This document shows, piece after piece, positions 1,505-19,710 of a stretch of DNA of 19,738 bases. A program made the position numbers and the translations under genes. How positions within the stretch are numbered: the stretch's first letter is position 1; each line of letters begins with the position of its first letter. Source of the stretch: Terramyces sp. JEL0728 (Eukaryota > Chytridiomycota > Chytridiomycetes > Rhizophydiales > Terramycetaceae); the NCBI GenBank assembly GCA_027603945.1, contig JADIIU010000185.1:1-19738 (forward strand), in the 5' to 3' direction. The notes below the pieces were generated by a model. The model was not told the DNA's origin. It saw only the letters and a list, made by a program, of their open reading frames with translations, and did not search any database.

Positions 1505-1506
1505 GA

Positions 1507-2233
1507 TTATTCCGTCTTGTCTTTGCCAAACACCTTTTCAAAAACCTTACTTCGTTGTTTAATCATATGTTGATACATGAACCAGAAACCAGGACCATAC
1601 ATACCAGCGATAAAAGTAAACACAAATCCATATAGCGGTTGAGTTTGTTGTGCGAATGGAATAGCATATTGAATCAGCATGAATTCACTAGCAGCTCCTA
1701 CTGGATACAAAACGAAAAAGAATGTATATCTGATGTAAGTTGAAAACAGCGGTGCAGTTCCATAAATCAAATTCAATGCATAGTAGCCATAACGTACGAT
1801 TTCTGTAATTGACCATGCGATTACCATTGAAGAAACAAAGTAAGATTCTCTAACTGATGGATAATCGTACTTGTCTAGAATAAACCAGACCAAGAGTAAT
1901 CTTGAAGCTACTTGGATCATTGTTGGAGTTGGATCTGCTCTAACCAATCCCACAGTTGCATGGAATACCTTTGTTAAAGATAATTACCTCAAGCAAAGCG
2001 CAGGTTTGAACAATGTTTAATAGAAGAGATACTTTGGAGTATACTGAATGGTAACTCGCTGATTGGAGTTCTTGAATTACGACGACAAGGACTGAAAACC
2101 AAGCGATACAAGAGGCCAAGTTGTATGCAATGAGATAATTCTTTTGTAATGCGGATTGTTTCTTGACTTCCTTCTTTACCTCCTTTACCTCCTTTACTGG
2201 TTCCTTTTTTGTAGTTGATTTTCTAGGAGCCAT
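1507..2233 (-). CDS. PHS1: very-long-chain (3R)-3-hydroxyacyl-CoA dehydratase (PHS1/HACD family)
   Basis: Third enzyme of the ER fatty-acid elongation cycle: it dehydrates 3-hydroxyacyl-CoA to trans-2-enoyl-CoA for sphingolipid-type very-long-chain acids. Exons 2233-1988 and 1968-1507 give 235 residues. A lysine-rich cytosolic N-terminus with EVK repeats is followed by several hydrophobic membrane segments. Family motifs are present: LLEVFHATVGLVRADPTPTMIQVASR, AWSITEIVRYGYYAL, and YIRYTFFFVLYPVGAASE. Tyr170 and Glu177, seven residues apart, match the catalytic pair Tyr149/Glu156 of yeast Phs1. The C-terminus KDKTE is a KxKxx dilysine ER-retrieval signal. The LLEVFHATVGLVR block appears only when the 19-nt intron at 1969-1987 is removed. 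Confidence 0.95.
1969..1987 (-). other. 19-nt intron of PHS1
   Basis: gtaattatctttaacaaag. Removal joins GAG to GTATTCCAT and turns two out-of-frame pieces into the conserved LLEV-FHATVGLVR motif. The putative branch motif is TTAAC with its A at nucleotide 14; the intron has an unusual AAAG acceptor end. Confidence 0.93.
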
Positions 2234-2333
2234 CTGCTGAGAGGTAAACTGCTTTTTGCAAAATCGAGAAATTTGCTCAGGTTCGGGTCCTCAGTTATTA
2301 AAATTACAAGTATTTCCATCCGCAAGGAGCTGT

Positions 2334-2803
2334 TCATAACTTTGAGTTTATTAAGCCTGGTCCATCGACAAGCACACATGGTCCGCCAGAAATTACATTT
2401 AGTCCTGCTTGTTTTGCAAATTCAATTCCTTCGGAATGCTCTGATCCTGGCTGCAGCCATATGTTCTTGACTCCCAATTCGGCAGCAGTCTTTAGTACCG
2501 AAAGAGTAATAGCAGGTGGTGTAATTACTGACACCGATGTATGCTGAGGATCGCTCAATTCTTTCAAGTGTTTAATCGCTTTAAATCCTTCAATTGAATC
2601 TGATTTTGGGTTTACTGGATATATTGGCAGTTGTGAGTTTTGTTTGTAGAATAGCAATACTTTGTTTCCGAATTTTGAAGGATCAGCAGAAGCACCAACT
2701 TTCATTAACAAAGCTTACCAACTGCGAATCCCTTTGCTTGTTTAAAGAATTGACTCTGGCTCATTTTATCTGTTTTTGAAAAGAAGGAAAGCAGTCGCTG
2801 CAT
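2334..2803 (-). CDS. CoA-binding (Rossmann-fold) domain protein, YccU/CoA_binding_2 type
   Basis: Small single-domain protein of 149 residues; exons 2803-2719 and 2698-2334. The glycine loop FAVVGASADPSKFGNKVL (about residues 26-43) is the nucleotide/CoA-binding signature of the succinyl-CoA-synthetase alpha N-terminal fold. It is followed by the alternating strand-helix pattern with YPVNPK, SVSVITPPAITLSVLKTAAELGVKNIWLQPGSEHSEGIEFAKQAGLNVISGGPCVLVDGPG. No catalytic function is established for these stand-alone domains. The start could be 2803 (MQRLLSFFSKTDK, possibly a weak mitochondrial presequence) or the in-frame ATG at 2764. It is divergent from the ASH-protein gene only 36 bp away and tandem with PHS1. 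An AATAAA word (2347-2352, minus) lies inside the coding end. Confidence 0.88.
2699..2718 (-). other. 20-nt intron of the CoA-binding protein gene
   Basis: gtaagctttgttaatgaaag. Splicing G|TT GGT restores the glycine loop VVGASADPSKFG exactly. Branch motif TTAAT with A at nucleotide 14. Confidence 0.92.
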
Positions 2804-2839
2804 GGTGAAAAATTGAAATATCTTTGACGCGAAAATAGA
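2804..2839. promoter_or_regulatory. 36-bp divergent intergenic promoter
   Basis: Only 36 bp separate the divergent start codons of the CoA-binding protein (2803, minus) and the ASH protein (2840, plus). If the former starts at 2764 the gap is 75 bp. No TATA box is evident; transcription start sites must lie inside this gap or overlap the neighbouring coding sequence. Confidence 0.5.
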
Positions 2840-5800
2840 ATGTCAACAACAAAGGAGCTGCGAAACGCTGCTAGATATTTATTAAACGACACTGTACCAG
2901 ATGAATAACTCTAGACATTTACAAAATCATTTCTTTACAAAGAGAAATGGAAAATACTGATATCTGGACTGCAAGATATGGAACCAACAATTAGATATCA
3001 GGCACTGCTAAGTATAAATTTACTAGGGACCAGTATTTCAAGTAAATTAGATGATTTGGAAACGCAGATTAAGCTAGTAACGATTTTGATTGGATTAGCC
3101 GCGAATGAAGAAGTACAAACCACTAACAGTAGACCGGCATGGGCAAAAACGCTGCTGCTACTTGTTTAGCTTTCTGTGTAAAAGCATTTTCAAATTCGCC
3201 CAGTTTCCCAGAATCATGCAGCAAAATAGCATTTATAACAACAATGAACGAGCTATTAACTCACTTTCCTACAAATACAAACGCATTCCAAGACCTCAGT
3301 TTGTTTGATATCAGGACAAATATTAGCAAATCAAAATTCAACTCTAGAATCACATTAATTCACGCAATTGGATACTACATGTCAATGCCAGAGTGTCTGG
3401 ATACGAAATTTCAGACTTTTATTGATGAATTATTCAAAGGAATCTTGTCTGCAAATTCCCATCCACTACTATTGAATGCTGTGTTCAATGTCATAACGAA
3501 TCATCTTCCTAAAACCAATAGAAATCGATTAAGAGTGGAAAAGCACTATAGAGGTCCAATCAACAAGATTATTGAGCAGCATAAAGAGAACCTGGCAACT
3601 TCAGATTCACACAAATATGCGACCACGGTTTTCTTGAATGGATTACACAAATTTGTTTCTACGTGGTACATAAAACCATCAGACACCCAAATTATGTTTT
3701 CAAACAAGAATGTGGAATTTCCGATTGGGCTAACTGGATACGCAAGTCGAAGAAAAACATATCTGTACAGCTTATCAGAATCAAGCGGTACATTTGAAAT
3801 GCTGGATGACAAAGAACGAAAAGAAAGAGTGCAGTTGGGGAATTTGGAGCCATACAAACCACTTTATCCGTTTGAGTACAAATTAAAGTTGTTTGACAAA
3901 TATGTTACAGAAGGTTGCACTTAGCTAACCCAGTACCTGAAGAATTTGTTGGAGAAATAGATCCTGAAATAATTCCCACAGACAGCGTAATAGTGCCATT
4001 GAAAGAAACGTTGAGCTTCAGGCTGAAAAGTTCTACAATAGACTTTCAAACAAATCCGCAGACATTTAAACTGTTCTTGGATAATACTAGCCATGAAGAT
4101 ATGCAATTTGTCATCCAGGTTTATCCATCAGAGCATTTTACTGCCATGCCTGCATTTGGCACAATTGATAAGCAAAGCTCGTTGCCAATAATGTTGAGCA
4201 TCAAACCTCAAAATACAAGGAAAACATATATTAGAGGATATCTATATGTTCGATCAATAGAAGGGTTTCCCCTCGAAAGGTAAACGATGTTGATTCAGGT
4301 ATACATTAAACGGATACAATTTGCCGGCCATCCAAACTGCTGAAGAAATCAATTTTGGCGTTTGTGGAGTAAACGAAAGCACATCTGCAGTCTTATTGTT
4401 GACGAATCTGCTACCTGCGGATTGTTCAACGGTAATGGTAATGAAACTCTCAAAATACTCTTCGTATTTCCAAATCCCACAATCACAAGTAGTAATACCC
4501 GCAAGAGATTCCAAATGCATCATAATCAAGGGAGAGTTTCCTTTGGAAAAAGTATACAATGAAACGCTAATAATTTGTGCATTCGGCGGACAAATTATCA
4601 AAGTTAATCTGAAAGCTACAGTTGGCCCACAATTAACTATTCTTGAGGATAAACTCAATTTTGGTCCAACCGATATATTCTTTAACAGGGTCACAAAAAA
4701 ACTGAATCTGATAAACAGATGCAAGGAAACAAAGCTGCTCGTAATGGCCAAACCATCGACAAATGAAATAGAATTTAATAATGGGAGCCAATTAATTTTG
4801 AAGCCGGAAGAAGAGGTCGCTGTTCCTGTTCGGTTTCTCTCCAATATTAGTGGATACAGACAAGAAAAACTGGTGATCTCTTGTCCAACAATGCCAACAA
4901 AAACCATTCCAATAACTGCGTTTTCAGGCCCGCTAGTAAAAATACCTGCGTTCGAAGATATCTACTTTCCTTGTATTCTTGTAGGGCAAACTAGCTTTGT
5001 TAGGATTCCCATGGTTAACATGTCAAATGAAGCAGCTATTGTGACAATGTCTGTTCCAACTGGAGCTCCAATCAAGTTTACTACTATGCCTGTGGACTAT
5101 TCAACTAAAAGAACTGGCACAAGCGAATACGCTACGAAAGCCTTTAATCAAGGCGAGCAAACTGGGATCAAGCTAGGTTTATCAGCATTCACAACAACTG
5201 TAATAGAAATCTCTTTTATTGGTGCAAAAGCAGGATTTTTCCAATTACAGCTTAATTCAAACTTGCTTAAACCGTTCAAATCTGATATCAGTACCCATCG
5301 ATTATTGATTTCTGTAATGAACGAAGATAGTTTAACAACTGCACTGAATTCTACAAAACTATTAAAAGATTTTGCGTCGAAACCATTTTTACAGCCTGAT
5401 ACAGACCCAGAAGTTTTCAAAGAAGTAGAATCCCCGGCAACGAAACTAAAGAAATCTGATATATTCCATCTGGAGCCGAGTGTGATTACTGTTTTTGGAT
5501 TCAATCATCTGGCTAGAATTAACGATAGTATGGAGATGATGTACTTGGTGAATCTTACCAATGAGCCACAGCGCTATAAGCTAATCTTATCATATAATTT
5601 CAGGACAACTGTTCCTTTAGAGGGAGATATTCCCGGGTCTGCAAGTTTAGAAATCCCTATCAAATTCGATCCTTTTCTCTGCACCAATCCAGAAACAGCA
5701 ACCTTTACCACCTTTGGGAATATCACTGTGCTCGATTCAAATTTCAACGATCCTGGAATGGTTGCAGGTCAGGTATTTGGAGCAATTGGCGATTTAGTGT

Positions 5801-8800
5801 CTGTTGACATCAGGAACATGGAAAATCAAATTGAATTCCCTGATGTGCATCCAATGGAAGAAACACACAAGAGACTAATCTTCAGAAACAAGAGTAGCAT
5901 TCCATTGGTTTTGGAAGCCAAATTTGATCAAGTGGAAGATAAATCTGCACTGCAACAATCAAGTGGAGACAATTCATGGAATCCATTTACATTCACACTG
6001 AAATCAACGACTCTCAAACCATATGAATTGGCTTACATTGATGTATCGTTTAAATCTAGTGTATTTGGAGAGTTTTCATCCAAGTTGCTGCTGTCCTACC
6101 AAGATCCATACCACACGCCAAACAGCAACAAACTGAGGGGAGGCAAATTCAAATTTCTAACTCCTATTAAATTTAGTTGTAATGTAGGGTCTCAAGAAAT
6201 CACAGTCCAGCCAGAGTTTATACATTTCGGCGACTTGCCGGTTGGAGATTCGAGTATGTGCCATACTTATGTTACCAACACGAAATCAATATCAGCAACT
6301 GTATCGACAATCGCACCACAAGGAGGCTCGACAAACCCATTAATTGCCAAAGTTGCTGGTAAAGTGAAACAACAGATTGATCTGACATACATTCCAGTGA
6401 ACTTTGGGTATTTCCAGCACCAAACATTCTATTTCACCACAAACAACTGTCTAGCAATTCCGTTTTTTGGTTATGGAGGAAAGTTTGGATTGGCGACTAG
6501 CCAATGTGATTTGTTTGTAAATTATGAAAGTGAAAAAATACCAGACACGATGATTATCAACGTTGGAAAAGTACCAGCCGGGACTGAAATTCATAGATCG
6601 ATCAATATTATTAATACCGGCACCACGACCCTCAAACTTGTCAAAATCTCAAATGGAAATCCGGATTGTTGTTCGTTGGAGCCAATGTATGACAGCTATG
6701 TTGGATCTGACCAGGATGCCATTGAAAGTTCTTTCAATAGAGAATACATTGATAAAGACGAAGTGGATTTGGACAATTTAAATTATTTTGGAGACAATCA
6801 AACCCCGCCAGGTAAATTGTTGCGAAAGAACCGCGTTTCTGTCACCAACTCAAAACGATCAATCAGCACCACTGCAAAAAATAAGCAGACTTTTGCTCTT
6901 TTTGGAACATCTCCAGGAACGATTATTAAAAATCCAAACAACTTGGTGAAAATAATAGGATCATCAGCTGTGGAGTCTGTCTTGCCCACCCATATCCCAC
7001 CTCTTTCAGACTTTGCATTTCAATTTGGAATCAATGCCGAAAACTTTGTAAGCGCCAATTTAATTGTAGGGCTCGTTTTCTATACCTATTAGTTTAGGCG
7101 TACAAGGATACCGAAAAGAAGTTTCAACGTATACTTTTTGGATCCAAGGACAAGTACTAAGACCGCTAGCCCTGAGCTCTAAAAAGTTTGACTTTGGCGT
7201 GAGTCCAATTAATCAAACTCAAATATCCACAATCAAATTTGTCAATGAAGAATCGGCCCCAATTAAATGGAGCATCAGCTACGCCGGGTCAACCTTAATT
7301 CCTACTGAATTATTTACCGATAACTTGCGTCCTAAAAAAGAGATTAGATGTCCTGTACGTGTGTTTCCGCAGAGTGGTACATTGCAAGCAGGTTGCACTC
7401 AGACAGTAGAAATCCAAATGACTCCTAAAGTTGAAAACGCAAAGTTGCTATCGCTACTCACCTTAAATTCCGGCGACTACCACAAACAAGAGATAATTGT
7501 AGAGATTGTTGGAGCATCAAGCAAATTGGAGGTCGAGCCTGCTTCTCTTGATTTTGGAGTCCTTCGAGTTGGAACTCTGCGTTCACACACTCTCCGACTG
7601 TCTAATATCGGTGTACTCCAGTGCCAGTATTACGTGGAATGTTCAAATACCGATTTTTTGGGAGACCCGGAACAGGATATAATCAAAGGCGAAGAGGAGC
7701 TGGAAATCACGGTGACATACAAGCCGAAAAAGTCTGGAAAGTCAAATGCAAAGCTATATATCCACTCCATATCAGAACGAAAAGCCCCACCTATTGTTGT
7801 TTCTTTGCTAGGAATTGCCAGCTATCCTAAATTGGTTGTATTGTCAAAGGTAGTTGATTTTGGGACTGCACTGTTCCGAAGCATCAATACAAAAACTATA
7901 GAAGTTCAAAACAAAGGGGCAGCAGAAGCCCACATTGTTTACACTTGTTCCCACCCTGATATTTATATCGAGTCTTTGGAGGAAGATGCACTTTATGTAG
8001 GACCTAACCAAACAAAGGAAATTACAGTAGTTTACAAACCTCTGGTGGTAGAACGGCTGAATGCAAAAATTTACATAAATTCAAGCGATAGCAGAGGAGA
8101 AACTTATATGATTGTTTTACGAGGAAACGTCGGGATTCCTCAATTAACCATTTATCCGCCTGATGCTTTGGAAAAGCTTAACTTTGGGGTAATGGCATTA
8201 AACAAAAGACAATCGAAAAAGATCAAATTAGTCAACGAAGGAACAATATTTTTGAATTATTCAATCAAAGTTGAAGAGATTTCGATAGTCACAATCGACA
8301 AGTCTATGGGTTTCAAAAGGAACATATCGAATGTGCCTTCTCCAATTCGAATTGAGCCATCTGAAGGGAGTTTAGGGGTCGGAGAATCACAGGAGGTTAC
8401 TATTTACTTTGAACCGACAATGCTTGTTGAATATACTTATGAAATGACTTTGAAATACGAGTATCAAGATTTCACCGCATATATCACGGGAGTTGGAGGG
8501 AAATCCCAAGCAAAAATATATGGGCCGTTTACCGATTTCGACTTTGGACTCTGCAGGTTAAATAGAGTATATGAAAAAACGATACATATCTTTAATGGCG
8601 GCAATTTAGGATTTCACTATCATATTCGACCCAAACCCGCCGATGGCAGCTGGGATGTGTATACTAAGGAAGTTGGATTCATTGACGAATACAGTCCAAA
8701 TTCATCACCGCTATGGGATGGCTGGAAAGACGCATTACAAAGCGAAGGAATTAAAATTATTCCATCAGATGGATTTTGCGGAGCGCAAGAAAAGGTGTCT

Positions 8801-11800
8801 TTCAAAGTCCAGTTTAAACCAACCAAAGCAAAAGAAGTGCGACAATTATTTAGATTTTATCAACAAGAACGCTATGAAGACTTTAATGTCTTTGGATTAG
8901 CTGCGTCGCCGTCCTTGCATGTCTCGGATCGCACTTCAAACCAAATAGTCAAGGCTGGCGAAACTCCTGATATACATATAGGAGTGCATCCGGTAAAAAG
9001 CACTCACAAGTATATGCTAGACCTTGTAAATGATGGGCCATTTGGAATTGACTATCTGCTGCAACCGATGGGCTCGGTAGAATACGAAATTTTTCCTTTG
9101 AGAGGTTTTATCGAAGCACATCAGACAACCCCGATCAGCATTATATTCCAACCTACCTCTGAAAGCAAATTCCACTCGACTTTAAAAGTCATTTGGGAAG
9201 ACGAACCAATTGTGGCAAACATTTTTGGGGATGGTGGAATTGGACGGCTGGATGTAACCTTCTTGGAAGAGAAAGATATCTTGCTCAAAAGTTTGGACTT
9301 TGGCATGGCCCCATTTAATTCTCCTTGCAAAAAGAGGTTTTACTTGATGAATAATGGAATGGTAGGAGTATCCACAACCATTCTAGTTGAAAATGAAGAT
9401 TACGCAATTTCACAGTTAGGTGAAGTTATTAATTCGAATGAAATGGACAAGTCCAAAGTCATGCCCAAGGATATATTCTCGACGTGGTACAACAACTTGA
9501 AGATTGTCCTTCCCGCTGGAAAGGCTGTTCAGATAGGAGCACGATTCTTGCCAAGAAGCTCAATCACTTCGGTGGGAGATATTACAATTCGGTCTGACAG
9601 CGGTAACTTTACTATCCCTTTGAAAGGGAAAGGTGGGACCATTTCGCTTACCCATCGTGGAGATCTTGATTTTGGGGATGTTTCCTGCAATTATACATAC
9701 ACGAGAAAAATCACTATACTAAACGGAGGGTCAATTGCCTCAAACCTGTCACTAGCTTGGTTAGTGGTTGGATATGCGAGTGATATACCTGAATCTCATG
9801 TAAATCTTGCAGAAAACTACTCGTTCTTGGATCCAAGATCCCAGTGGGCGAGACAACAATTGTTTGCGGAAAAAGAAATAGGTGATGTTAAGCAGCTGGA
9901 CGCAAAGCTGGCAGCGAAAGAGTATTGGAGATTAATTGTGCTGATGGTTCGAAAGTCAGAAGTAAAAGAGGCAGCAATCCTCAACACTTTGGACGGTGCA
10001 GCAGTTCCCGCTGGTCTTGCGAAACGAACAATTAACACCACCAACGGATCTCATTTCAAAAGAAAACAAATGTTTTACTATCTGATTACAAACACAGTAC
10101 TTTCGAGCCAGTCTTCCTCGCAAGTAAGGCCGTTTATCAAAATTAGCCCAGCATCTACATTTTTGCCCAGTTACGGGGAGGTTACTTTTACGGTTGAATT
10201 AAACCTAGCCAGCGAAGATACATTTTTAGCAACTTTAATAGTAAAATCAGACATTATCAATACTTCAAAATACGAGATCCCGCTTACTGCTACTCCAAAA
10301 ATGGTTTCCATCTTTTGTAACGACACGAGAATGCTGAATTTCTACAGACAGCCGCTAGGAGAGACAGAAGTTATGACAAGAAAGTTCACCAATGTCGGTC
10401 ACAAGGAAGTGCCGTTCAAGTTTATAAATCCAAGCAACAGCTTGACTATTGCACCTTCAAAAGGAGTTTTGAGGATTGGGCAGACGATTGAAGTGCTATT
10501 CTCTTTTAAACCTACAGATGAATCAACTCACCAAGGAGATGTTGTATTCGAACCAAACTTTTCTCACCCTATCCGATTGAAAATGTTTGGAGGTGGCGGG
10601 TATGCTATCGCATCATTGGCAAGATACAGAAGATTTGATTTTGGACATTGTATGATAGGAAAGGACACAGTCTCCAACTTGCCTGTGGTCAATGAAGGCA
10701 ATGCTATTTTGCATCTGACAAAGTTTGAGCTTCAAGAAACCGACACCTTCTTCAGAGGCAAAGACTGGCCAACAGGCAGAATTTCACTGTTCCCTGGAAA
10801 AAGCTACAACCTGCCCCTCGTTTTTAATCCCCATGAAGAAAATCCAGTCCCCGGACACCTTGTAATCGGAACGAATACAGACATTTACGAAATCGAACTG
10901 ATTGGATTGGGGAGAGAAGCTGTACTAATTGTTTCAAAGATTGCGCTAGAATTTTCAGAATGTTTGATTGGAAATTCATACGAACAAAAGTTGGGCTTAA
11001 AGAATATTGGGGACGTCAATTATCCTGTTACCTTTCACCTTGAAAAAGAATTTCCTGACTTGTCGATCCATCCGTCAAATTTAACAATTAATCCATTCAG
11101 TGAAAATTTCGCTGTGATTCACTACAGCCCATCCCATCAAACGAAATCCACGATAGTGATGACAATCTCGTCCCCTTATAGTGTGCACAAAGTACCGGTT
11201 ATGCTTCATTCTGGCACTGCCATGTTGGAATTCAACTCAAATGAGTTGGACTTTGGCATGTTTGAACGTACAACAACCCCTTCAATCACTTTGACAATGA
11301 GAAACACCGGGACAGTGAAAACGTCCTTCCTGCTTAAAGATTTGCTGAAACCCCCAATATTTAGTATTGATCCAGTAAAAGGCTTACTTCACCCAAAGAA
11401 AACAGTAGATATCAAAATTTCGCATATCCGGCATCAAGTATCACAGTTTGATGAAAAAATTTCTGTTAAAACAGACTTGGTGGACAAACTATATTTGATT
11501 AAACTTCGAGGTCAGTGCGAAGAAACCGTTCTTCACCCTGATGAGTTTTCCATGTTGAACCTCGGTGTTTGCCCTGTATTGGAACCAACTACCAAGCCTT
11601 TGTATTTCAAAAACTATGGCAAATTCCCGCTTCAATTCCAGGTACAAAGTGCATATCCTCTTAAAGTATCTCCTAACGAAGGTGTGGTAAATGGCGAGGA
11701 TACAGGTGTTGTATATGTTACTTGGAGTCCTTCTGGCGGATACGAACTAAGAACACAGTTGCTGCTATCTACAAATATCGGCAAATTCCAAGTACTGGTG

Positions 11801-13963
11801 AGAGGAAAATCGTTATTCCCAGAAATTCATGTTTCCAGCTTATACGTGGATTTTGGAATTTGCGCGCTTGGTTACTCGTATCACCATTCATTTTACATTG
11901 AAAATAGAGGGAAGGTAAAGTTACATTTCAACATTCCTGTCTGCAAAGAAAGCAGTTATGTAACCTCAATTTCGCACGGTGCTTTAGATCCTAGGGAAAC
12001 AGTTACCGTAAATCTACTATTTTCCCCAAGGGCTCTTGGAAAACTGACTGGGAGCTTGATTGTGGATTGCAAAGGCATTCACTACAAAGAAATAGTTTTG
12101 GTTGGAATGGGTGGAAATATGGTGGTGGATATTCTTCCAAAAGTTTTAGATTTAGGTATCTTGACATAACATTAGAGAGATGTCCTTTTGGTTTAACTGT
12201 GTACGACACTGTCAAGATCAGAAATACCGGCGATGTGAACTTGGCCGTTGACTTTTCGTCAACTGTACAAAATCAAGGATCATGCTACGTAGTAATTCCA
12301 GAACCGTTGTACGTAGAGGCTCGAACGGTAGTTTCGGTTTCAGTAGGATTTATTGTGAATGCGGTTGATAGATTTTACGCCAAGTTATCTATTCGCACGA
12401 AAGAGCAAACTTATATAATCCCCGTCACTGGAATTGGGATAAAGATTTCTTTATCGCAAACGAGCAAGGAAATTTTAGCCAGGGAAACATTTCGAATTGT
12501 AATTTTTATTAACAAAGCTTGGACCCTTGGATCCATACTATATAGAGCCACCTTACGAACCGATTGAGTTTGCAGCACAGCAATTAAGGGCAATTTACAT
12601 CAAGTCAATCGAACTCTATGAACAATTCCAGCTAATTTTTGCACAAGGAATAGATTTACAGGCAACAGAGAAAGACCCAAGAAAGTTAGAGTTTCAGTCG
12701 ATGAAGAGAATTTACTTTGGCAACGAAGTAAATATGAAAGGAACCACAAAGGAATTTAGACGAATAGTATCCAAATACGACGGATCTGCGGATTCAATGG
12801 GGTCAAGGAGTGGGCGATCGTTCACAAAGAAGGGTTCAGCCTCAATTCATAGTTCAATTGACCAATCGAGTATTTTGCACGAACCAGGAGCAGATAACGA
12901 CCAAACTATAGAAGGCAAAGAAAATCCAGACATCAATACCGGGCTGGATCTACACGCTGGAGATGTAACATCAAGTGCAGCTCCTGAAAAGGATCCTTTG
13001 AATTCAGAAAAAGCTGGGAAAGATGAAACAGTTGCTAGTCGTGGGTCTGAAGGTCAAGCTGAATTGAGTGTCATACCAGAAGGTGCGGAGCATGGTGAAC
13101 AAGCTGCAACTGTAATTCCAGATCCTGTAGCACAAATCCGAGAAGAGATGCAGACAGAACAGCAGGAAGAGCATAACGAAGAGGAGATAGTTGTACAGAT
13201 TGATCAACTGAATAATCCACCTATTTCTGAAGAGGGAACTGGTATTGCTGTTACTTCTGAAGGTAGTGTTATACCACCTGAAAGTCACGAATCAATAGCA
13301 AACGCAGCTTTGGACACAGCTGTGCTGGAAAGCATAAACAAAATGCCGTTGAGCGAGCAAGGTGAGAAAATAATGCCGACGTCTACTCAGCAGCTTACTG
13401 GGGATATTGGAATTCAAATGGACGATGCAGAACCAGACATAACAAACACCGTAGAAGGGATCCAGCACCTCCACTCCAAGGTAAAGAATGCTTATGATCC
13501 ATTCAAGCCAATTAACTTTTCCGAAATCAGAGAGCTTTCAAATCAATTCATGCAGCTCAAAACATTTGAACCAGAGAAAGAGATAGTGCCAGACGATCCT
13601 GTCATTGACGAGATAATTGAGGTTGGAAGATTGGAAATCAAAAACATGAATTTGGATCCAATATTGGAATATCAACAATCATTTGATCCAATCGATATCG
13701 GGTTTTTGCTTAACAGACCACCGCCTTTCAAGAAAGACAAAGAAGCTGATGTAAGTAAAATTAATCTCAGGTTGGACAAAATCTTGGAAAGAATTCTGAT
13801 TCTCGTAAGGCTTATCTCAGTGCATTCCCACCATTAAAAAGATCAAACAGGAATGCTCGTTCCAATCCTTTCTCTGAAAACAAAAAAGGAATGAACTATG
13901 GCGAAGGAGTGCGACTATACGCGAGGTAAGCCATCCATTAAATCTAGCTACAACAACTACTGA
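2840..13963 (+). CDS. giant ASH/MSP-repeat axonemal protein, HYDIN-like
   Basis: Predicted 3,646-residue structural protein of motile cilia, probably central-pair associated. Exons: 2840-2893, 2915-3112, 3133-3913, 3934-4279, 4299-7047, 7070-12155, 12176-12498, 12518-13750, 13771-13925, 13948-13963. The first ~330 residues are helical and armadillo-like. From about residue 350 to 3180 runs a long series of ASH (ASPM-SPD2-Hydin) beta-sandwich repeats. At least 15 are marked by the strand motif xLDFG..xxG, for example SKKFDFGV, PASLDFGVLRVG, KVVDFGTA, KLNFGVMA, DLDFGDVS, RRFDFGHCMIG, NELDFGMF and YVDFGICALG. A low-complexity Glu/Ser/Thr-rich region (about 3260-3500) precedes a short basic C-terminus. 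ASH giants include HYDIN, CFAP47, CFAP65, CFAP74 and DLEC1; I cannot say which is the ortholog. If the last intron is not used, the protein ends at 13929 after 3,642 residues. All nine introns are 19-22 nt. Confidence 0.85.
2894..2914 (+). other. 21-nt intron 1 of the ASH-protein gene
   Basis: Starts gtaccag, branch motif ATAAC (A at nucleotide 15), ends tctag. It contains an in-frame TAA, so although its length is a multiple of three it must be removed. Splicing joins LLNDT to TFTKSFLYKEKW. Confidence 0.88.
3113..3132 (+). other. 20-nt intron 2 of the ASH-protein gene
   Basis: gtacaaaccactaacagtag. Branch CTAAC with A at 14. Two acceptors exist: CAG at 17 nt would leave an immediate TAG stop, so the TAG acceptor at 20 nt must be used. 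It joins AANEE to TGMGKNAAATCLAF. Confidence 0.88.
3914..3933 (+). other. 20-nt intron 3 of the ASH-protein gene, GTT donor
   Basis: gttgcacttagctaacccag. One of two introns here with GTT rather than GTA. Branch CTAAC with A at 15. Joins DKYVTE to VPEEFVGEIDP in phase. Confidence 0.82.
4280..4298 (+). other. 19-nt intron 4 of the ASH-protein gene
   Basis: gtaaacgatgttgattcag. Branch TTGAT with A at 14. Joins FPLER to YTLNGYNLPAIQ across a split Arg codon. Confidence 0.87.
7048..7069 (+). other. 22-nt intron 5 of the ASH-protein gene
   Basis: Starts gtaagcg, branch TTAAT (A at 16), ends tgtag. Removal opens 43 codons (GSFSIPISLGVQGYRKEVST...LSSKKFDFG), joining the two largest exons and completing an ASH repeat. 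Confidence 0.9.
12156..12175 (+). other. 20-nt intron 6 of the ASH-protein gene
   Basis: gtatcttgacataacattag. Branch ATAAC with A at 14. Joins PKVLDL to ERCPFGLTVYDTVKIRNTG, completing an ASH motif. Confidence 0.9.
12499..12517 (+). other. 19-nt intron 7 of the ASH-protein gene
   Basis: gtaatttttattaacaaag. Branch TTAAC with A at 14, AAAG end as in PHS1. Joins ARETFRI to LGPLDPYYIEPPYEPIEF. Confidence 0.9.
13751..13770 (+). other. 20-nt intron 8 of the ASH-protein gene
   Basis: gtaagtaaaattaatctcag. Branch TTAAT with A at 14. Joins KEAD to VGQNLGKNSDSRKAYL. Unspliced, the frame also stays open for 22 further codons, so support rests on the intron consensus and on the longer, basic C-terminal extension. 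Confidence 0.8.
13926..13947 (+). other. 22-nt intron 9 of the ASH-protein gene, before a 16-nt last coding exon
   Basis: Starts gtaagcc, branch-like TTAAA (A at 16), ends tctag. If spliced, the protein ends GVRLYASYNNY at 13963; if not, a TAA within the donor ends it GVRLYAR at 13929. The consensus match favours splicing, but there is no homology check. Confidence 0.6.
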
Positions 13964-13972
13964 CCCATGTGA

Positions 13973-13978
13973 AATAAA
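13973..13978 (+). terminator. polyadenylation signal AATAAA, ASH-protein gene
   Basis: The hexamer starts 10 bases past the TGA at 13961-13963, inside a 40-bp gap to the convergent QCR7 stop codon. Confidence 0.6.
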
Positions 13979-13995
13979 CAGTTTGAATAATCCAA

Positions 13996-14001
13996 TTTAT
14001 T
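13996..14001 (-). terminator. polyadenylation signal AATAAA for QCR7
   Basis: The minus-strand AATAAA begins 3 bases past the QCR7 stop codon. It lies only 17 bp from the facing plus-strand hexamer, so the two transcripts almost certainly overlap at their 3' ends. Confidence 0.6.
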
Positions 14002-14003
14002 TT

Positions 14004-14419
14004 TTAAGAGCTCTTGTTGCGAGCTAAAAGAGCTTGTGGGATTGAAGTCAAGTTTTCAAAGTTGAATTTAGTTTCGCTTTCCGCTTCGACTCTGGCTAAA
14101 ACTGGTTGGAGATAAGGTACATCCTAGAATTAATAGTTTTTACTTGAGCAGCTGTTGTCCATTCATTGCTTGGTAAGGTGGTCTTTTTCAATGATAACGA
14201 AAGTGCTCTTCTCATTCTGTATAATCTTTCAGCTTGTTGTTGTGGAGTAAGACGGCGGATGGCTTCCTGTACAATTTCGTTTTCTTCTGGAATCAAATCA
14301 TCGCTGAATAATCCTTCGGTTCTGTAAACTGCGAAACCGGCTTGGAGTTTATCGAGTGAAGTAAATGCGCTTGATTTTTTTAATGCGCGAATTGATTTAA
14401 GTGCGTTGACAATTCCCAT
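14004..14419 (-). CDS. QCR7: cytochrome bc1 complex subunit 7 (QCR7/UQCRB)
   Basis: Nuclear-encoded small subunit of mitochondrial respiratory complex III, sitting on the matrix side against cytochrome b. Exons 14419-14144 and 14123-14004 encode 131 residues, close to yeast QCR7 (127). The family core is clear: YRTEGLFSDDLIPEENEIVQEAIRRLTPQQQAERLYRMRRALSLSLKKTTLPSNEWTTAAQ, then DVPYLQPVLARVEAE after splicing. The last block matches the conserved DVPYL segment and is absent unless the 20-nt intron is removed. The start at 14419 (MGIVNALKSIRAL) is chosen over an upstream frame extension with no family similarity. It is convergent with the ASH gene (40 bp between stops) and lies 160 bp downstream of PKC1 on the same strand. 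Confidence 0.95.
14124..14143 (-). other. 20-nt intron of QCR7
   Basis: gtaaaaactattaattctag. Branch TTAAT with A at 14. Joins TTAAQ to DVPYLQPV, restoring the family C-terminal block. Confidence 0.94.
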
Positions 14420-14564
14420 TCTGATGAGCGATTGAAAAAAACAAAACTGGAAATCGAGCCTGAGCAAGCCGATAGTTTGACAACCTCCAATGACTATTGC
14501 ATAACTAACGGGATATTCTGCGGGTGATGCCCCTTTATATCAGCTTAATAGAAATATTGAACAG

Positions 14565-14570
14565 TTTATT
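14565..14570 (-). terminator. polyadenylation signal AATAAA for PKC1
   Basis: The minus-strand hexamer begins 9 bases past the PKC1 TGA stop codon. The 160 bp at 14420-14579 must hold both the PKC1 3' end and the QCR7 promoter. Confidence 0.55.
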
Positions 14571-14579
14571 GAAATAATA

Positions 14580-17551
14580 TCATTGCGGCGGAACCATAAC
14601 TGCAGCTCGAGACACTTTTGCCCAGTCACTAACAAATGTGAATCCTCTAAATTCTTCTTGATTTGCGTTGGATAATACAGAATGAACAGGCGTTAATACT
14701 GGCACTTCGCTGGTAAATTCTTCGTCAAAGTTTGATAAATCAGTAGGAGAGGTCTATGTTAAAACTTTATACGATTTTTGGCAGGTAAGGCGGAGGGATT
14801 TTCAAATTGTAGACATCGTTCCAATTGATTCCTTTGAAATAAGGATGTGCCTTAATTTCGTCTGCATCGGTAGGACCACCTCCTAATCGTTTGGCTGCAT
14901 CCTTATTCAGCAACCTTTGAATAACATCGACTGTGGCTCTATCGAGAGATTCAGGGAACATTGGTGGGTTTCTCAAAATCGCCTGGAAGATTCGCTCTTC
15001 AGAATCACCAGAGAACGGCGCCTGCTGTAAATCAAGATATACCTTTCCAAGTACCATTTCGTAAATCAATACACCAAAGGACCACCAATCAACTGCTCTG
15101 CCGTACGGTTTTTCAGCAAGAATTTCAGGAGCCATAAATTCTGGTGTTCCGCAAAAAGTGTTTGTAGTCGATCCATAAACCATGCTTTCCTTGCAAAGAC
15201 CGTAATCGGCAATCTTGACGTGGCCATCTAGAGTCAACAAGATATTGTCAAGTTTCAGATCACTAGTATGATAGATCAATTACCGATATAGAATTTTGTT
15301 TTGGTGCCAATATTCAAGCGCTAATAGAACTTCACATGCGTAGTATTTAGCTTGTGCTTGAGTGAATTTGGAGTGTTGAATATGCCACATCAAATCACCT
15401 CCAGATACATACTCCATTACAAAGTACAACCTTGATTCTGTTTGGAAGCAAGAATGCAAATTAACAAGGAACGGATGCTTGCCTTTTGTTGCAATTTGGA
15501 AACACCGTTTTTCTGATTTGGTACTCTCGACTTCGTCGTGTTCCAGGATAAATTCTTTTTTCAAAACCTTAATTCCGTAATAACTGTTTGTAAACTTTTC
15601 TTGCGCAAGCATGACCTGATGTTAACAATGGGTACTTTTCCAAAATTTCCTTTTCCTAGAACGGCCAAAAAGGTGAAATCGTCCAAACCAACTCCTTTGC
15701 TTCCGTGTCTAAAGAACATTAAACTTTCTTGACGATCGTTTCTAGTCAAATTCTTTAATTGCTTTGCTTGGCTTTGATCTGGCATTGTGGACAGCCTGTT
15801 CAACTCCTTCTTGCTCTGGAACGACTGCAAACTCGGTAGTCCATGTTTTCTTTCCCCGCTGACATTATCCAGCGAAGCGTGTAGCGATGATGTGGAAGCA
15901 GACGTATCAGCAGGCCCAGATTTTTGAAAGCTTCGTAATTCAGACATCAGCTTCGGCGGTAATCCACACAACTCTGGAATATAAAGCTTGCACGATTCAT
16001 GGCAGGTTAGTGAGCATTCCGTGCATTTTAAATAGCTATTCTTGCCAAGTGGAAGCATTTTTCCACAATGGCAACACCAATTGACAGCCCTGCTGGCGTA
16101 GATAGAGAATCTATGCGGTATCTTGTGCTTTACTTCGACTTCATTTTCATCCTACACGTTATATCTACGTACCTTGTCAAGTTCTGACTTTGCAATACAT
16201 TTACATACAACGTTATCTACACACCTGCGATGGCAAATAAAATCACAAGCTTTGGTTAATAATATTTACTTTGACAATTTAATCCCTGTCCGCTAACTAA
16301 AAATTCATGACATATGGCACATTTCAATACCTGGTACGAATTAATTCCAACAAACTTATGGCCCCTTCTGTTTGTGAATTTTTGAACAGCTTTTTGACGA
16401 ATTAGTTGTTCGTTGCCTTTCTTTTTCGGCTTTTCAGGAGCTGCGTTAATTCAAAATACTAAATGTCATCTGAAGGTGAATCTTTCCACCAGGTAATAGA
16501 TTCAGCCATACATCGGTGCCCTTTCCATCTTCAGAAGGGTTAATTTGAAGATCTTCCAAGTAGTCGTAAATCTTGAACCATATTAGCCCGAGAATTCCAG
16601 AGTCTTGTTCATGCACAGCAATTTCAACCTCGTGACCCTTTTCAAACGACATGTACAGCGCTTCATTCCATGTGCCTCTGCTGTTTCTAGTTTTTGATTT
16701 GGTAGAGTTATCCACAGATACTGTAACAAACAAATCCGATTTAGAGAATTTTTTCCCGGTCAGCCCAATGGCAGAAATCACAGTAATAGTCAGCTTACCG
16801 CTATTTGGCCGCTTGATGTTTGGTGAATTGTCTTGTTAGTGTCTTGCTACCTTTTTCTTCAAATATATTGACGCTCTGATAAGCTAGTAACGATCTCTGT
16901 AAAATAAAGATTTTCCCCATGCAATCTTGAGATTTGGATTTCAAATCTAGTGTAATTTTTTCATTTGTCGTCTCAACTTCAGCCCTAGCATGCAGCATCT
17001 TGTCAGTTCCTTCTTTGACTCTTTGCTCCACTTCTAGTCTATGCTGAATTTCCGCATACATGTATTTTACTTTATCTCTAGTAATGCTGGTATCACTGCG
17101 TATATAGCCTAAGATTAAAATTGATAACCAAATCGCGAAATCGGCGGAATGCCTGGGTCGCCTTCGAACACTTCGCTGAGACTAGTAGCTGAGTGCGAAC
17201 GAGATTTTAAAGTAAACCGCTGTAATAATCCTCCAAGATTTGAAGTCTTTCTCCTTGTAATCTTTCTAGCTTCCAATTTCGGCGCAGTTGGCCCTGGGAT
17301 ATATTCCTTCTCAATCTCCATTCCGGTGGTTTCTAATCGTAGTTTTTGCAATTCGTACATTTCCAATTGCAAGAAATTCAACCTTCTGGTTGTTTCGGTT
17401 ACGTTATGCTCACAACTGTCAATTGCCTCCTGTTCTTTAAGTCTAGTCAGCATGTACTCGGCTCCTTGTTTACACTTCTTCTCCACTTCAATTTTTGATT
17501 TCAAGTCTGCAATCTTGTGCTCGAAATCCTTCTGTTAGAACACAGTACCAT
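14580..17551 (-). CDS. PKC1: fungal-type protein kinase C (PKC1)
   Basis: Ser/Thr kinase of the AGC group; in fungi it acts below Rho1 in cell-wall-integrity signalling. Eleven exons: 17551-17549, 17528-17129, 17108-16851, 16831-16460, 16440-16270, 16249-16173, 16151-15636, 15615-15284, 15262-15043, 15021-14773, 14753-14580; 923 residues. Order: HR1 coiled coils (~2-65 and ~140-210, Rho binding); C2 (~225-345); RQKAV pseudosubstrate-like stretch; two C1 zinc domains (~364-412, ~440-487) with all His/Cys ligands and the fungal IPHRF...NWCCHCG motif; kinase from ~586 with GKGNFGKV, Lys615, YRDLKLDN, ADYGLCK (DYG is normal in fungal Pkc1) and the activation loop [12 protein letters not shown]. 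The tail carries turn motif LTP and hydrophobic motif FRGFTF. Each zinc and kinase motif that spans an exon junction is complete only after splicing. The start is the first ATG in frame, abutting an intron. Confidence 0.95.
14754..14772 (-). other. 19-nt intron 10 of PKC1
   Basis: gtataaagttttaacatag. Branch TTAAC with A at 14. Without removal the kinase would stop after PPPYLPKI; splicing adds the AGC C-terminal tail with turn and hydrophobic motifs. Confidence 0.94.
15022..15042 (-). other. 21-nt (or 18-nt) stop-free intron 9 of PKC1, tandem acceptor
   Basis: Starts gtatatcttg and ends acagcag. It has no in-frame stop and its length is a multiple of three, so it is read through in translation as VYLDLQQ inserted in YEMVLGK-APFSGD. 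AGC kinases have no insertion there, and the 21-nt form gives the exact family length (GKAPF like GQAPF). Using the first CAG gives an 18-nt intron and one extra Gln. Confidence 0.88.
15263..15283 (-). other. 21-nt intron 8 of PKC1
   Basis: Starts gtaattgatc, ends atactag. It interrupts the catalytic loop: splicing a split Arg codon CG|T gives [13 protein letters not shown]. Its branch motif is atypical (TCATAC). Confidence 0.94.
15616..15635 (-). other. 20-nt intron 7 of PKC1
   Basis: gtacccattgttaacatcag. Branch TTAAC with A at 14. Removal completes the ATP-binding glycine loop [14 protein letters not shown]. Confidence 0.94.
16152..16172 (-). other. 21-nt intron 6 of PKC1
   Basis: Starts gtacgtag, branch ATAAC (A at 14), ends gtgtag, so its own acceptor TAG is an in-frame stop. 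Joins [11 protein letters not shown] to [15 protein letters not shown] between the two C1 domains. Confidence 0.92.
16250..16269 (-). other. 20-nt intron 5 of PKC1
   Basis: gtaaatattattaaccaaag. Branch TTAAC with A at 14. Splicing restores the zinc-binding [12 protein letters not shown] of the first C1 domain. Confidence 0.94.
16441..16459 (-). other. 19-nt intron 4 of PKC1
   Basis: gtattttgaattaacgcag. Branch TTAAC with A at 14. Joins the end of C2 (HLQMTF) to the pseudosubstrate-like region [19 protein letters not shown]. Confidence 0.92.
16832..16850 (-). other. 19-nt intron 3 of PKC1
   Basis: gtagcaagacactaacaag. Branch CTAAC with A at 15, the shortest branch-to-acceptor gap seen (4 nt). 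Joins IFEEK to [21 protein letters not shown], the start of C2. Confidence 0.92.
17109..17128 (-). other. 20-nt intron 2 of PKC1, GTT donor
   Basis: gttatcaattttaatcttag. Branch TTAAT with A at 14. Joins PPISRFG to [20 protein letters not shown], entering the second HR1 repeat. Confidence 0.9.
17529..17548 (-). other. 20-nt (or 17-nt) intron 1 of PKC1, directly after the start codon
   Basis: gtactgtgttctaacagaag. Branch CTAAC with A at 14. The donor follows the initiator ATG immediately. Acceptors CAG (17 nt) and AAG (20 nt) are in the same frame and differ by one Lys; 20 nt fits the size range of the other introns. Confidence 0.75.
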
Positions 17552-17870
17552 TCTGATTGAAATTAATAAAAGCGAGTCAAAGGTAAATTTTTTGAGGCTT
17601 GGCTGCGAGGAAAAGTAATAAAGGTGGAATAAGTCCGATCAGTTAGAAAGATGGAAATGGAAACCTTTTGCAAATAGCGAATACCGTTGGTGAAGGCAAT
17701 GTACTCTCTGATCGCATAATATTCGAAATTTCAAAAGCTAAACTTCAGGAGATTTCATATTATGGCGCCTAAGCTCACCGTTAGGGATTGGCATTCTCCA
17801 TAGAAAGCTCACAACAGATACTGTATTTTGAGCTGGGCTGCAAAAAATATTTTCAACAAAAAATAAAGAA
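17552..17870. other. 319-bp divergent intergenic region PKC1/BCP1 with unexplained open frames
   Basis: It must contain the PKC1 and BCP1 promoters. It is longer than most gaps here and holds two overlapping, protein-like open stretches: 17665-17730 on the minus strand (22 codons, ...AIREYIAFTNGIRYLQK, ending at a GT) and 17647-17769 on the plus strand (41 codons, no ATG). I recognise no family with confidence and cannot build a gene from either. Confidence 0.4.
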
Positions 17871-18640
17871 ATGAAGAGAAAAGAGAGCGATTTGGAATCA
17901 GCAAAGAAAAAACTGAAAGAAGAATCTGAAGAATCTGAATCTGATTATTCAGTTGATTCGGAAGATGGGGAAGACGACGAAGATAAAGAAGAAATAATCA
18001 ATGTTGATTTTGACTTTTTGGATTATTCAGAGATAGACTTTCATGGACTGAAAACACTAATCAAGCAAATATTTTCAACTGATTTCACTAGAGATTCAGA
18101 TTTGTCAGATTTTTTGATTTCTCAGAATATTGGCAGCGTGGTCAAGGTTGATGAAGGATTGGACCCATATGCTTTCATCACTGTCCTTGATTTGAATGGC
18201 AAGGAAGAATTCATCAGAGAACTTGCTGATTTTCTGAAGAAGAAGGACGATAAATTGAAAATGAATGATGCCTGCCTCCTACTGAGTTGCAGACTGATTA
18301 ATATGCCGCCGCAACTCGCCCCACCGCTATATAGACAATTAGTAAACGATGTCAAAGTAATTGCGATTAATATTAGAAAAAATACAAGACCGTTTATTAC
18401 ATTTCTCAGGTGTACAAAATGGTGAGCGATAAGGAAGTGTTTTTCTACCAGGCAGAAGATGAATTACTGCAAGATTTAGTTGACTACTACGTGGATTATC
18501 AACTACCTAACCCTCAATCTACTGACAGTCGCAGAGTATTCAATGATGATGGTGTAGAGACCTGGAGAAGGATATTTTGCTTCAAGTACGATAAATTGGC
18601 AATATTCCAAAAAGCAATGGATAAAGAATTGGCCGAATAA
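17871..18640 (+). CDS. BCP1: BCP1/BCCIP family protein
   Basis: Nuclear protein of the BCCIP family. Yeast Bcp1 is a chaperone for ribosomal protein Rpl23 (uL14) and is needed for nuclear export of Mss4; human BCCIP binds BRCA2. Exons 17871-18356 and 18377-18640 give 249 residues, somewhat shorter than yeast Bcp1. The first 45 residues are a basic, then very acidic, low-complexity stretch ([24 protein letters not shown]). The family core follows: [84 protein letters not shown] and, after splicing, [15 protein letters not shown]...[12 protein letters not shown]. The short acid segments and [11 protein letters not shown] are diagnostic. It is upstream of THI5 on the same strand, with 95 bp between them. 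Confidence 0.92.
18357..18376 (+). other. 20-nt intron of BCP1
   Basis: gtaattgcgattaatattag. Branch TTAAT with A at 14. Joins QLVNDVK to [24 protein letters not shown], restoring the conserved C-terminal half. Confidence 0.93.
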
Positions 18641-18641
18641 A
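18636..18641 (+). terminator. AATAAA overlapping the BCP1 stop codon
   Basis: The hexamer AATAAA contains the TAA stop codon (18638-18640) itself. If used as the polyadenylation signal, the 3' UTR would be only about 10-30 nt. Confidence 0.5.
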
Positions 18642-18689
18642 GAAATTACAAGTTTGGATATTCCATCACCTATTTGTGAGATTGTGGCT

Positions 18690-18710
18690 ATGTCTACCAA
18701 TATCACTTGA
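18690..18710 (+). other. short upstream ORF (MSTNIT) before THI5
   Basis: ATG at 18690 opens a six-codon frame MSTNIT ended by TGA, 25 bases before the THI5 start. Its first nine bases ATGTCTACC are identical to the THI5 start. It is either a leader uORF or a chance or duplicated start segment; no function is shown. Confidence 0.35.
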
Positions 18711-18735
18711 AAAAAATGTTGTTCATTTACCAAAA

Positions 18736-19704
18736 ATGTCTACCGAAAAGATTACCTGCTTACTCAACTGGCAAGCTACTCCATACCACGTCCCAGTGTT
18801 TCTCGCTCAGAAGCTTGGGTTCTTTGCAAATCACGGAATCAAAGTCGCAATTTTGGAACCAAGCGATCCATCCGATGTTACTGAAATTATCGGGTCTGGA
18901 AAGAGCGATTTGGGTTTGAAGGCAATGATCCACACTATTGCAGCTAAAGCGAGCGGGTTCAACGTCACTTCAAGTAACAATCTCTAATTCTAGTCGGAAC
19001 TCTTCTTGATGAACCATTGACTGGTGTTGTTCACGTTAAAACGCAGTCCGGAATTACTGATTTCGAATCTCTCCGAGGAAAGAAGATTGGCTATGTCGGC
19101 CACTTTGGCAAAGTCATTATTGACGAATTGATGCGCTCCAGAGGATTCAAGGAAACCGACTACGAGGCAGTTCGTGTGGGCATGAATGTAACTGATGCCA
19201 TCAAGAGAGGAGTGATTGATGCCGGTGTTGGTTTGGAAAACGTGCAACAAGCCGAGTTGGAAAACTGGGTTGAATCCAAGGGACAGCCAAGATCTGATGT
19301 CGAAATGCTCAGAATCGGTAATTGACATTGACGTAGATGAGTTGGCAGATTTGGGATGCTGCTGCTTCTGCTCGGTCTTGTACATTGGAAACGACGAGTT
19401 TATTGAAAAGAACCCCGAAAAAGTCAAAGCATTCATGGCAGCTATTCGCGAATCAACCAGCTACATGCTTGCCAACCCAGACAAGGCATATTCTCTCTTT
19501 ACTGAAATGAAGCCAGCTTTGGCAGGCAAGGATCACCGCACCATCTACGACCGTTCGATGATCTACTTTTCCAAGGATCAGTCCAACGTCCAGCGCGACT
19601 GGAACAAGGTCACTGGCTACTCCAAGAGACTTGGGTTGGTCAACGACACTTTTGTTCAAAACATGACCAACGAATTCATTCAATTGGATACCGTTGACCG
19701 TTAA
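18736..19704 (+). CDS. THI5: 4-amino-5-hydroxymethyl-2-methylpyrimidine phosphate synthase (THI5/NMT1)
   Basis: Makes the pyrimidine half of thiamine (HMP-P) from pyridoxal phosphate and an active-site histidine of the protein itself, so it is a single-turnover enzyme. Exons 18736-18973, 18994-19317 and 19337-19704 encode 309 residues (yeast Thi5 has 340). It has the periplasmic-binding-protein-like fold of the NMT1/THI5 family: [22 protein letters not shown], then GLKAMIH with Lys62 (PLP) and His66 (the consumed histidine) at the same positions as in yeast. After two splices come [16 protein letters not shown] and the iron-binding CCCFC motif at residues 195-199. The ATG at 18736 fixes this numbering; further in-frame upstream residues are not conserved. 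I see no TPP-riboswitch motif in the 95-bp upstream gap, although fungal THI genes often have one. Confidence 0.97.
18974..18993 (+). other. 20-nt intron 1 of THI5
   Basis: gtaacaatctctaattctag. Branch CTAAT with A at 14. Splices A|TC into [15 protein letters not shown], the conserved family segment. Confidence 0.95.
19318..19336 (+). other. 19-nt intron 2 of THI5
   Basis: gtaattgacattgacgtag. Branch TTGAC with A at 14. Splices G|AT into [16 protein letters not shown], restoring the approach to the iron motif. Confidence 0.95.
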
Positions 19705-19710
19705 TCTTGC

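Follow-up and report, generated by a model that had tools for sequence, protein, structure and literature searches.

Evidence for spliceosomal introns of 19-22 nt throughout the genome of a chytrid fungus, Terramyces sp. JEL0728

INTRODUCTION

How short can an intron become in the nucleus of a fungus? The question is raised by a stretch of 19,738 nucleotides (contig JADIIU010000185.1, positions 1 to 19,738; hereafter, the window) from Terramyces sp. JEL0728, a chytrid (Chytridiomycota, Rhizophydiales, Terramycetaceae). A first-pass annotation, made from the letters of the window, described 25 breaks in its genes, each repaired by deleting a GT...AG segment of 19-22 nt, and ascribed them to spliceosomal introns of a flagellated, fungus-like nucleus. 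The organism fits that description, being a soil chytrid and thus a flagellated fungus. The assembly is a draft of 15,016,339 bases in 231 contigs. The window contains seven intron-bearing genes (PHS1, a CoA-binding protein, a HYDIN/CFAP65-like gene, QCR7, a protein kinase C, BCP1, and THI5), together with intronless H2A and H2B genes. Here, we present evidence that the segments are, very probably, genuine U2-type spliceosomal introns of Terramyces sp. JEL0728, compressed genome-wide to 19-22 nt and mostly to 19-21 nt.

RESULTS AND DISCUSSION

Twenty-five tiny introns in the window

All 25 breaks in the seven genes could be located. Every one of them starts with GT, ends with AG, and restores the coding frame when it is removed. 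A recount of their lengths returned the same figures as the earlier tally by eye, namely seven of 19 nt, twelve of 20 nt, four of 21 nt, and two of 22 nt. The start is GTA in 23 of the 25, and 22 contain a TRAY motif with its A at position 14-16, the exceptions being 13926-13947, 15022-15042, and 15263-15283. A gene finder limited to introns of 18-23 nt, whose training data included the window, called 21 of the introns, whilst the other four (2699-2718, 2894-2914, 13926-13947, and 15022-15042) were placed by hand from the reading frame. When a finder that had not been trained on the window was given a flat prior over 10-300 nt, 12 of its 18 window introns were 19-22 nt long, compared to 0-3 for each of 16 decoy dinucleotide pairs. 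On this sequence evidence, we regard the breaks and their GT...AG segments as confirmed, and as more than chance would produce.

A sharp length peak in the rest of the genome

The annotation had predicted a sharp genome-wide peak at 19-21 nt, and such a peak was present in 20 other contigs, both in a motif scan and in the calls of a flat-prior gene finder. The genome-wide sample comprised 200 kb from these 20 contigs, or 220 kb in all with the window. In the scan, GTA...TRAY...AG segments of 12-300 nt were counted by length in the 200 kb. There were 84, 96, and 59 segments of 19, 20, and 21 nt, respectively, against 28.2 ± 5.5 (mean and standard deviation over 23-300 nt), which corresponds to z values of 10.2, 12.4, and 5.6. 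The highest count at any other length between 12 and 300 nt was 42, and the peak vanished when the first or last bases of the motif were changed.

The flat-prior finder, allowed 10-120 nt and run on the 220 kb, placed 93 of its 174 introns at 19-22 nt (26, 41, 20, and 6, in order of length), with 1, 1, 0, and 1 at 17, 18, 23, and 24 nt. Sixteen decoy dinucleotide pairs yielded 1-13 introns at 19-22 nt at this setting, the one of six at which decoys were run; across all six settings, the 19-22-nt share was 49-60%. A held-out set gave the same picture, with 21 of 55 introns at 19-22 nt versus 0-3 for decoys. That set consists of 20 of the 28 loci from the genome search; L002, L024, L035, L036, L041, L042, L045, and L046 were left out, as they overlap with other loci or training stretches, or represent a repeat.

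Scaling the excess gives ~219 introns in 200 kb and, by rough extrapolation, ~16,500 in the whole genome. When gene models were restricted to introns of 18-23 nt, 80 of 117 models had introns, 213 in total, over 161.6 kb of coding sequence (1.3 per kb), a count that misses in-frame, stop-free introns such as 15022-15042.

Intron anatomy

A TRAY motif lies near the 3′ end of 98 of the 119 introns of 19-22 nt that were called blind to the branch site, compared to 715 of 5,264 (13.6%) GT..AG segments of the same lengths in general (p about 1e-61). In the 213-intron set, 62 introns are 19 nt long; 95% of these have T at position 12, and 98% have A at position 14. Across the whole set, the branch adenosine sits at position 14-16 in 169 introns and elsewhere in 8, and is followed by 5 or 6 bases in 147. 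The typical intron thus has a GTA(A) start, YTRAY with the adenosine at 14-16, and AG 4-7 nt further on, so that the branch is spaced at nearly fixed distances from both ends of the intron. About nine in ten start with GTA, and the interior G+C content is 26%. The 3′ border of the upstream exon leans toward AAG (A 52%, A 62%, and G 50% at -3 to -1), with 72 of the 213 exons ending in AG. The branch motif is complementary to the GUAGUA of this genome's own U2 small nuclear RNA (snRNA; locus L023).

Comparison with proteins and public gene models

Once spliced, the QCR7, THI5, and protein kinase C products can be aligned with solved relatives across their junctions. A number of the tiny introns are already modelled in the NCBI proteins of the strain. 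Spliced THI5 is identical, at 309 of 309 residues, to such a protein, with both introns spliced alike; the next relative, from Globomyces pollinis-pini, is 82% identical. The NCBI PKC1 protein, P0121, agrees with our model at seven of ten introns, including an in-frame one of 21 nt (15022-15042) that had been revealed by an extra stretch of seven residues, VYLDLQQ, relative to PKC beta. The acceptor of this intron is a tandem CAGCAG, so it can be read as 21 nt or, as 15025-15042, as 18 nt. Both the 18- and 21-nt versions are possible, which makes this intron a candidate for alternative splicing close to the lower size limit.

An eighth PKC1 intron (16152-16172) has an acceptor in common with P0121, in which that intron and the remaining two lie within a single 360-nt intron. 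This 360-nt intron (16152-16511) comprises three tiny introns, two whole exons that encode a C1-like block, and the final part of another exon. The block is kept in the PKC1 of Boothiomyces macroporosus, a chytrid that we take to belong to the same family as Terramyces and whose protein is 85% identical over the aligned part. Where Terramyces has the 19-nt intron 16441-16459, the Boothiomyces protein reads TF-GALFLIL-VPEK. The insert is encodable by a 21-nt GT..AG segment under 6,912 of the 82,944 possible codon choices (the branch motif, too, is present in 4,608 of these 6,912), which suggests that a tiny intron was left unspliced in the Boothiomyces model. Moreover, 80 residues of the kinase domain are missing from that model. 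Public gene models in this family need care.

In a length-free homology alignment, seven proteins with a relative at hand (PHF5A and LUC7 were not among them) were aligned with the DNA, and introns of 10-300 nt were allowed. Thirteen of the resulting 15 GT-AG introns, none of which lies in DIM1, were 19-22 nt long. The scores summed to 3718 for GT-AG versus 3209-3392 for ten decoy pairs, which gave 0-5 introns at 19-22 nt (5 of 9 for CT..AC). Tiny introns also interrupt the gene for U1-C, itself a part of the splicing machine (L044, G000:C76:63232-63396 plus flanks). Its first 9 coding bases are followed by a 21-nt intron, an exon of 10 nt, a 22-nt intron, and the main exon, and the 21- and 22-nt deletions rebuild a protein that aligns with human U1-C across the junctions. 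The small exons of this gene are shorter than the tiny introns beside them.

Spliceosomal components

Core components of a U2-type spliceosome are encoded in the genome. Prp8 was matched in its U6-binding domain. U2 snRNA was found at 140.2 bits with the branch-pairing GUAGUA present, and U5 snRNA at 85.9 bits, with a normal length of 115 nt and an intact exon-pairing loop. DIM1 is 79% identical to its human counterpart, SF1 49%, U2AF35 51-67% in four pieces, and a LUC7 relative 30-34%; U1-C is encoded as well. Directly downstream of the U5 gene, in locus L037, there are two identical tRNA genes (1901-1982 and 2330-2411), 0.4 kb apart.

Other components were not found. A search of the genome with RF00003 returned no U1 snRNA match at E <= 1, and none of 14 exact genome matches to ATACTTACCTN is U1 according to Rfam. 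For U1-70K, PF12220 had no match in the genome (in a search run without a positive control), and the human protein as a query found RRM-like stretches only, at no more than 42 bits. RF00026 gave two 27-bit matches to U6, below the family cut-off, on the near-identical loci L035 (G000:C199:4823-4928) and L036 (G000:C111:34941-35045). Both contain ACAGAGA and lack the canonical catalytic sequence. They lie on different contigs and are probably copies of a dispersed repeat. A pattern for the 3′ half of U6 had two genome matches, neither of which is U6 in Rfam, and a pattern for the 5′ half, allowing three mismatches, had six, compared to three for the reversed control, with nothing recognized by Rfam in the three that were fetched. 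U6 may be divergent, interrupted, or absent from the draft. PHF5A was missed by the search in which U1-C was recovered.

Any cell that splices by a U2-type spliceosome should contain both U6 and PHF5A. The misses therefore show the limits of searching an intron-rich draft, rather than losses; genes cut into small exons can escape the search that was used. Accordingly, loss of U1 is not concluded, since U1-C and a LUC7 relative are encoded and the conserved PHF5A was missed too.

Weighing the alternatives

Several observations weigh against the idea that the introns are real and uniformly tiny. The case for them is made from DNA and protein sequence. The motif scan has no excess at 22 nt (32 versus 28.2, z 0.7), and 36 of the 213 introns are without a branch motif by the scoring used. 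A first, cruder finder run, which allowed up to 300 nt, put 32 of 106 introns at 19-22 nt, and 81 of the 174 flat-prior calls fall outside this range; we read the latter as noise, given that they lie within or below decoy rates. Two of the homology-aligned introns are 15 and 24 nt long, in a weakly conserved part of SF1. U1 snRNA, U6, and U1-70K escaped the genome searches described above. Lastly, the total score of the finder is higher for TT..AA (3829) than for GT-AG (3773), with AT..AG at 3774, and TT..AA again scores higher in the held-out loci. We dropped the total score as evidence because of this result; it is the length peak, not the total score, that singles out GT-AG.

The most serious competing view is that tiny introns coexist with a second class, of normal introns of some 50-300 nt or more, which our methods missed. 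Long introns are hard to detect from DNA, and the NCBI model of PKC1 does contain one of 360 nt. When flat-prior finding was extended to 600 nt, it made 60 calls of 121-600 nt, without decoy runs for that range. In addition, the branch motif occurs in 30 of 107 calls of other lengths (28%), twice the background, and some of these may be real introns, or real acceptors paired with the wrong donor. However, calls of 25-120 nt were fewer than for decoys (64 versus 109-141), those of 121-300 nt in the held-out loci equalled decoys (22 versus 20-28), and branch-anchored counts were flat over 23-300 nt. Moreover, the 360-nt NCBI intron deletes the cysteine-rich block that is kept in the Boothiomyces and Globomyces proteins. 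We consider a second class improbable. The claim that tiny introns are the only intron class stands insofar as there is no excess at 23-300 nt in the 220 kb sampled, with room for rare longer introns.

It might also be supposed that the frame breaks are artefacts of sequencing or assembly and that nothing is removed in the cell, given that the assembly is a draft in 231 contigs. Errors would not yield 19-22-nt inserts that start with GT, end with AG, and have a branch motif in a fixed place (98 of 119 compared to the 13.6% background), nor the same pattern in 20 other contigs. The apparent unspliced 21-nt intron at the same place in the protein of Boothiomyces, the closest PKC1 relative found, argues in the same direction, and we give the error hypothesis almost no credence. 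Removal by another route, such as ciliate-type DNA elimination or the ribosomal bypassing known from some yeast mitochondria, would leave the same trace in the protein, where any frame-mending deletion looks alike. Yet the segments eliminated in ciliates have different ends, and those in Terramyces have GT..AG ends, along with a motif that complements the branch-pairing sequence in the genome's own U2, in a genome that encodes the core of a spliceosome. Such a route is exceedingly unlikely.

How a 19-nt intron could be spliced

If the segments are U2-type introns, as is very probable, an ordinary spliceosome would excise them as lariats, the loop comprising ~14-16 nt and the tail 4-7 nt. The floor of 19 nt would fit a tiling in which U1 or U6 occupies positions 1-6 and U2 positions 9-15, followed by the shortest tail able to present an AG. 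With the adenosine at 14, two bases would separate the pairing sites and four would lie behind them, making 19 nt about the least that allows simultaneous pairing. This arithmetic rests on canonical pairing, which involves six intron bases for U1 and UACUAAC for U2. The ceiling of 22 nt would fit the use of the first AG past a branch site held at a near-fixed distance from the 5′ end. The argument of the first-pass annotation, that introns this short would crowd U1 and U2, is likewise an inference.

A bolder proposal is that Terramyces and its close kin possess a spliceosome specialised for tiny introns, in which U1/U6-U2 tiling acts as a length ruler of 19-22 nt. U1 would have been lost, shrunken, or altered past recognition by the usual model, and the choice of the 5′ site would be left to U5 and U6. 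We hold this proposal to be doubtful; if true, such a spliceosome would be the first in fungi, with splicing factors that are otherwise ordinary.

Tiny introns in other lineages

Tiny introns are a known kind; what is new is the fungal lineage. The annotation named two precedents, the Bigelowiella nucleomorph and Stentor, but omitted mikrocytids, with introns of 16-17 nt, and Blastocystis, where the median is 19 nt. The nucleomorph of Bigelowiella natans, a relict algal nucleus of 373 kb, is described as having 865 introns of 18-21 nt (PMC6461891). Its narrow length range resembles that of Terramyces, at a density of about 3 introns per kb of coding sequence, and the excerpted text of that source describes its U1 (102 nt) and U5 as shrunken, with no obvious motif at the 5′ exon border (PMC6461891). 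Terramyces, in contrast, has a 15-Mb fungal genome, a U5 of normal length (115 nt), and an exon border that leans toward AAG|GTA(A).

For Stentor coeruleus, 8,806 introns of 15-16 nt are described, and all five spliceosomal snRNAs were found (PMC9505925). Stentor and Terramyces have in common a near-fixed branch adenosine, A+T-rich introns, and a U2 with GUAGUA, and the Stentor tail is 5 nt (PMC9505925). The Stentor adenosine is at position 10 or 11 and, in the text excerpted, the branch consensus is not strong (PMC9505925), whereas Terramyces has introns of 19-22 nt, an adenosine mostly at 14-16, a strong YTRAY, and an extrapolated total of ~16,500 introns, with U1 and U6 escaping our genome searches. 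With an adenosine at position 10 of 15, U1/U6 and U2 pairing in Stentor would have to alternate.

Uniform, conserved introns of 16-17 nt are described in Mikrocytos mackini and Paramikrocytos canceri (PMC10245619), the former a parasite with 224 introns and a highly reduced spliceosome (PMC10245619). By contrast, Terramyces has abundant introns and retains SF1, U2AF35, U1-C, and a LUC7 relative. Blastocystis, a bigyran protist with compact genomes, is given a median intron of 19 nt in the excerpted part of PMC12817076, and we liken it to Terramyces by length alone, not by splice signals. A survey that covered 644 fungal genomes describes the mean intron of Cryptococcus neoformans, 63 bp, as relatively short, and a tiny class goes unmentioned in its excerpts (PMC8476143). 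The excerpts of PMC13391722, PMC9698843, and PMC11210171 do not mention intron size in these fungi. We found no report of tiny introns in fungi in the open-licence literature, and a search of viral contigs for relatives returned none. Terramyces introns share GT..AG ends and the U2 type with other fungal introns.

With Terramyces, the fungi, the group that holds the yeasts, where splicing is best understood, would join the few lineages with introns near the physical minimum. What sets Terramyces apart from relict nuclei, giant ciliates, and reduced parasites is its 15-Mb genome with numerous introns, its strong branch motif, and several of the usual helper proteins, and comparison with yeast makes it testable how a 19-nt intron accommodates both U1 and U2. 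Its introns rank with the smallest reported from any nucleus, and it is, consequently, a new place in which to ask what is the minimum piece of RNA that a splicing machine can excise. There is a practical side as well, in that software expecting longer introns harms gene models, as in the PKC1 of Terramyces and apparently that of Boothiomyces.

Genes and introns of the window

The first two intron-bearing genes are on the minus strand. The PHS1-like 3-hydroxyacyl-CoA dehydratase of the PTPLA family (1507-2233; Pfam PTPLA, 160.8 bits with the spliced protein) has one intron of 19 nt, GTAATTATCTTTAACAAAG, at 1969-1987, which was called by the 18-23-nt gene finder and recounted. The CoA-binding protein (2334-2764; CoA_binding_2, 107.8 bits with the spliced protein) also has a single intron, of 20 nt (2699-2718), which the gene finder missed; its removal yields AVVGASADPSK.

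On the plus strand, at 2840-13963, lies the gene for a HYDIN/CFAP65-like flagellar protein with Ig/ASH repeats. Removal of its nine introns leaves an open frame of 3,646 amino acids, and the Pfam evidence was taken from the largest exon, 7070-12169. Seven introns were called by the gene finder and recounted: four of 20 nt (3113-3132, 3914-3933, 12156-12175, and 13751-13770), two of 19 nt (4280-4298 and 12499-12517), and one of 22 nt (7048-7069). The hand-placed intron of 21 nt at 2894-2914 has a length that is a multiple of three and contains an in-frame TAA. The last, of 22 nt (13926-13947), is also hand-placed and lies outside conserved sequence; if it is left in, the frame ends within the intron, seven codons earlier.

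QCR7, subunit 7 of complex III, is on the minus strand at 14004-14419 (UCR_14kD, 102.5 bits, and an alignment to PDB). Its one intron (14124-14143, 20 nt) is supported by the gene finder, the PDB alignment, and the length-free spliced alignment. The PKC1-like protein kinase C is likewise on the minus strand (14580-17551), with HR1, C2, C1, and kinase domains (Pfam on the NCBI model P0121), and encodes 923 amino acids once ten introns are removed. Four introns are supported by the length-free spliced alignment. Three of these were also called by the gene finder, namely 14754-14772 (19 nt), 15263-15283 (21 nt, within the YRDLKLDN loop), and 15616-15635 (20 nt, past the glycine loop), whilst the in-frame, stop-free 15022-15042 was hand-placed. 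The gene finder also called 16152-16172 (21 nt, recounted), 16250-16269 (20 nt, within the C1-like cysteine-rich block, which, when spliced, is conserved in the Boothiomyces and Globomyces proteins), and 16441-16459, where the Boothiomyces protein has the insert GALFLILV. The remaining three, 16832-16850 (19 nt), 17109-17128 (20 nt), and 17529-17548 (20 nt, immediately 3′ of the start codon), rest on the gene finder together with protein comparison.

The last two intron-bearing genes are on the plus strand. BCP1, of the BCCIP family (17871-18640; BCCIP, 108.3 bits), has a 20-nt intron at 18357-18376 that was called by the gene finder and recounted. The THI5-like pyrimidine synthase (18736-19704) scores 398 bits to yeast THI5, and the NCBI protein identical to it is P0001. 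Its two introns, 18974-18993 (20 nt) and 19318-19336 (19 nt), are each supported by the gene finder, yeast THI5, the NCBI protein, and the length-free spliced alignment. At the other end of the window, the intronless histone genes form a divergent H2A/H2B pair, at 369-761 on the minus strand and 922-1305 on the plus strand.

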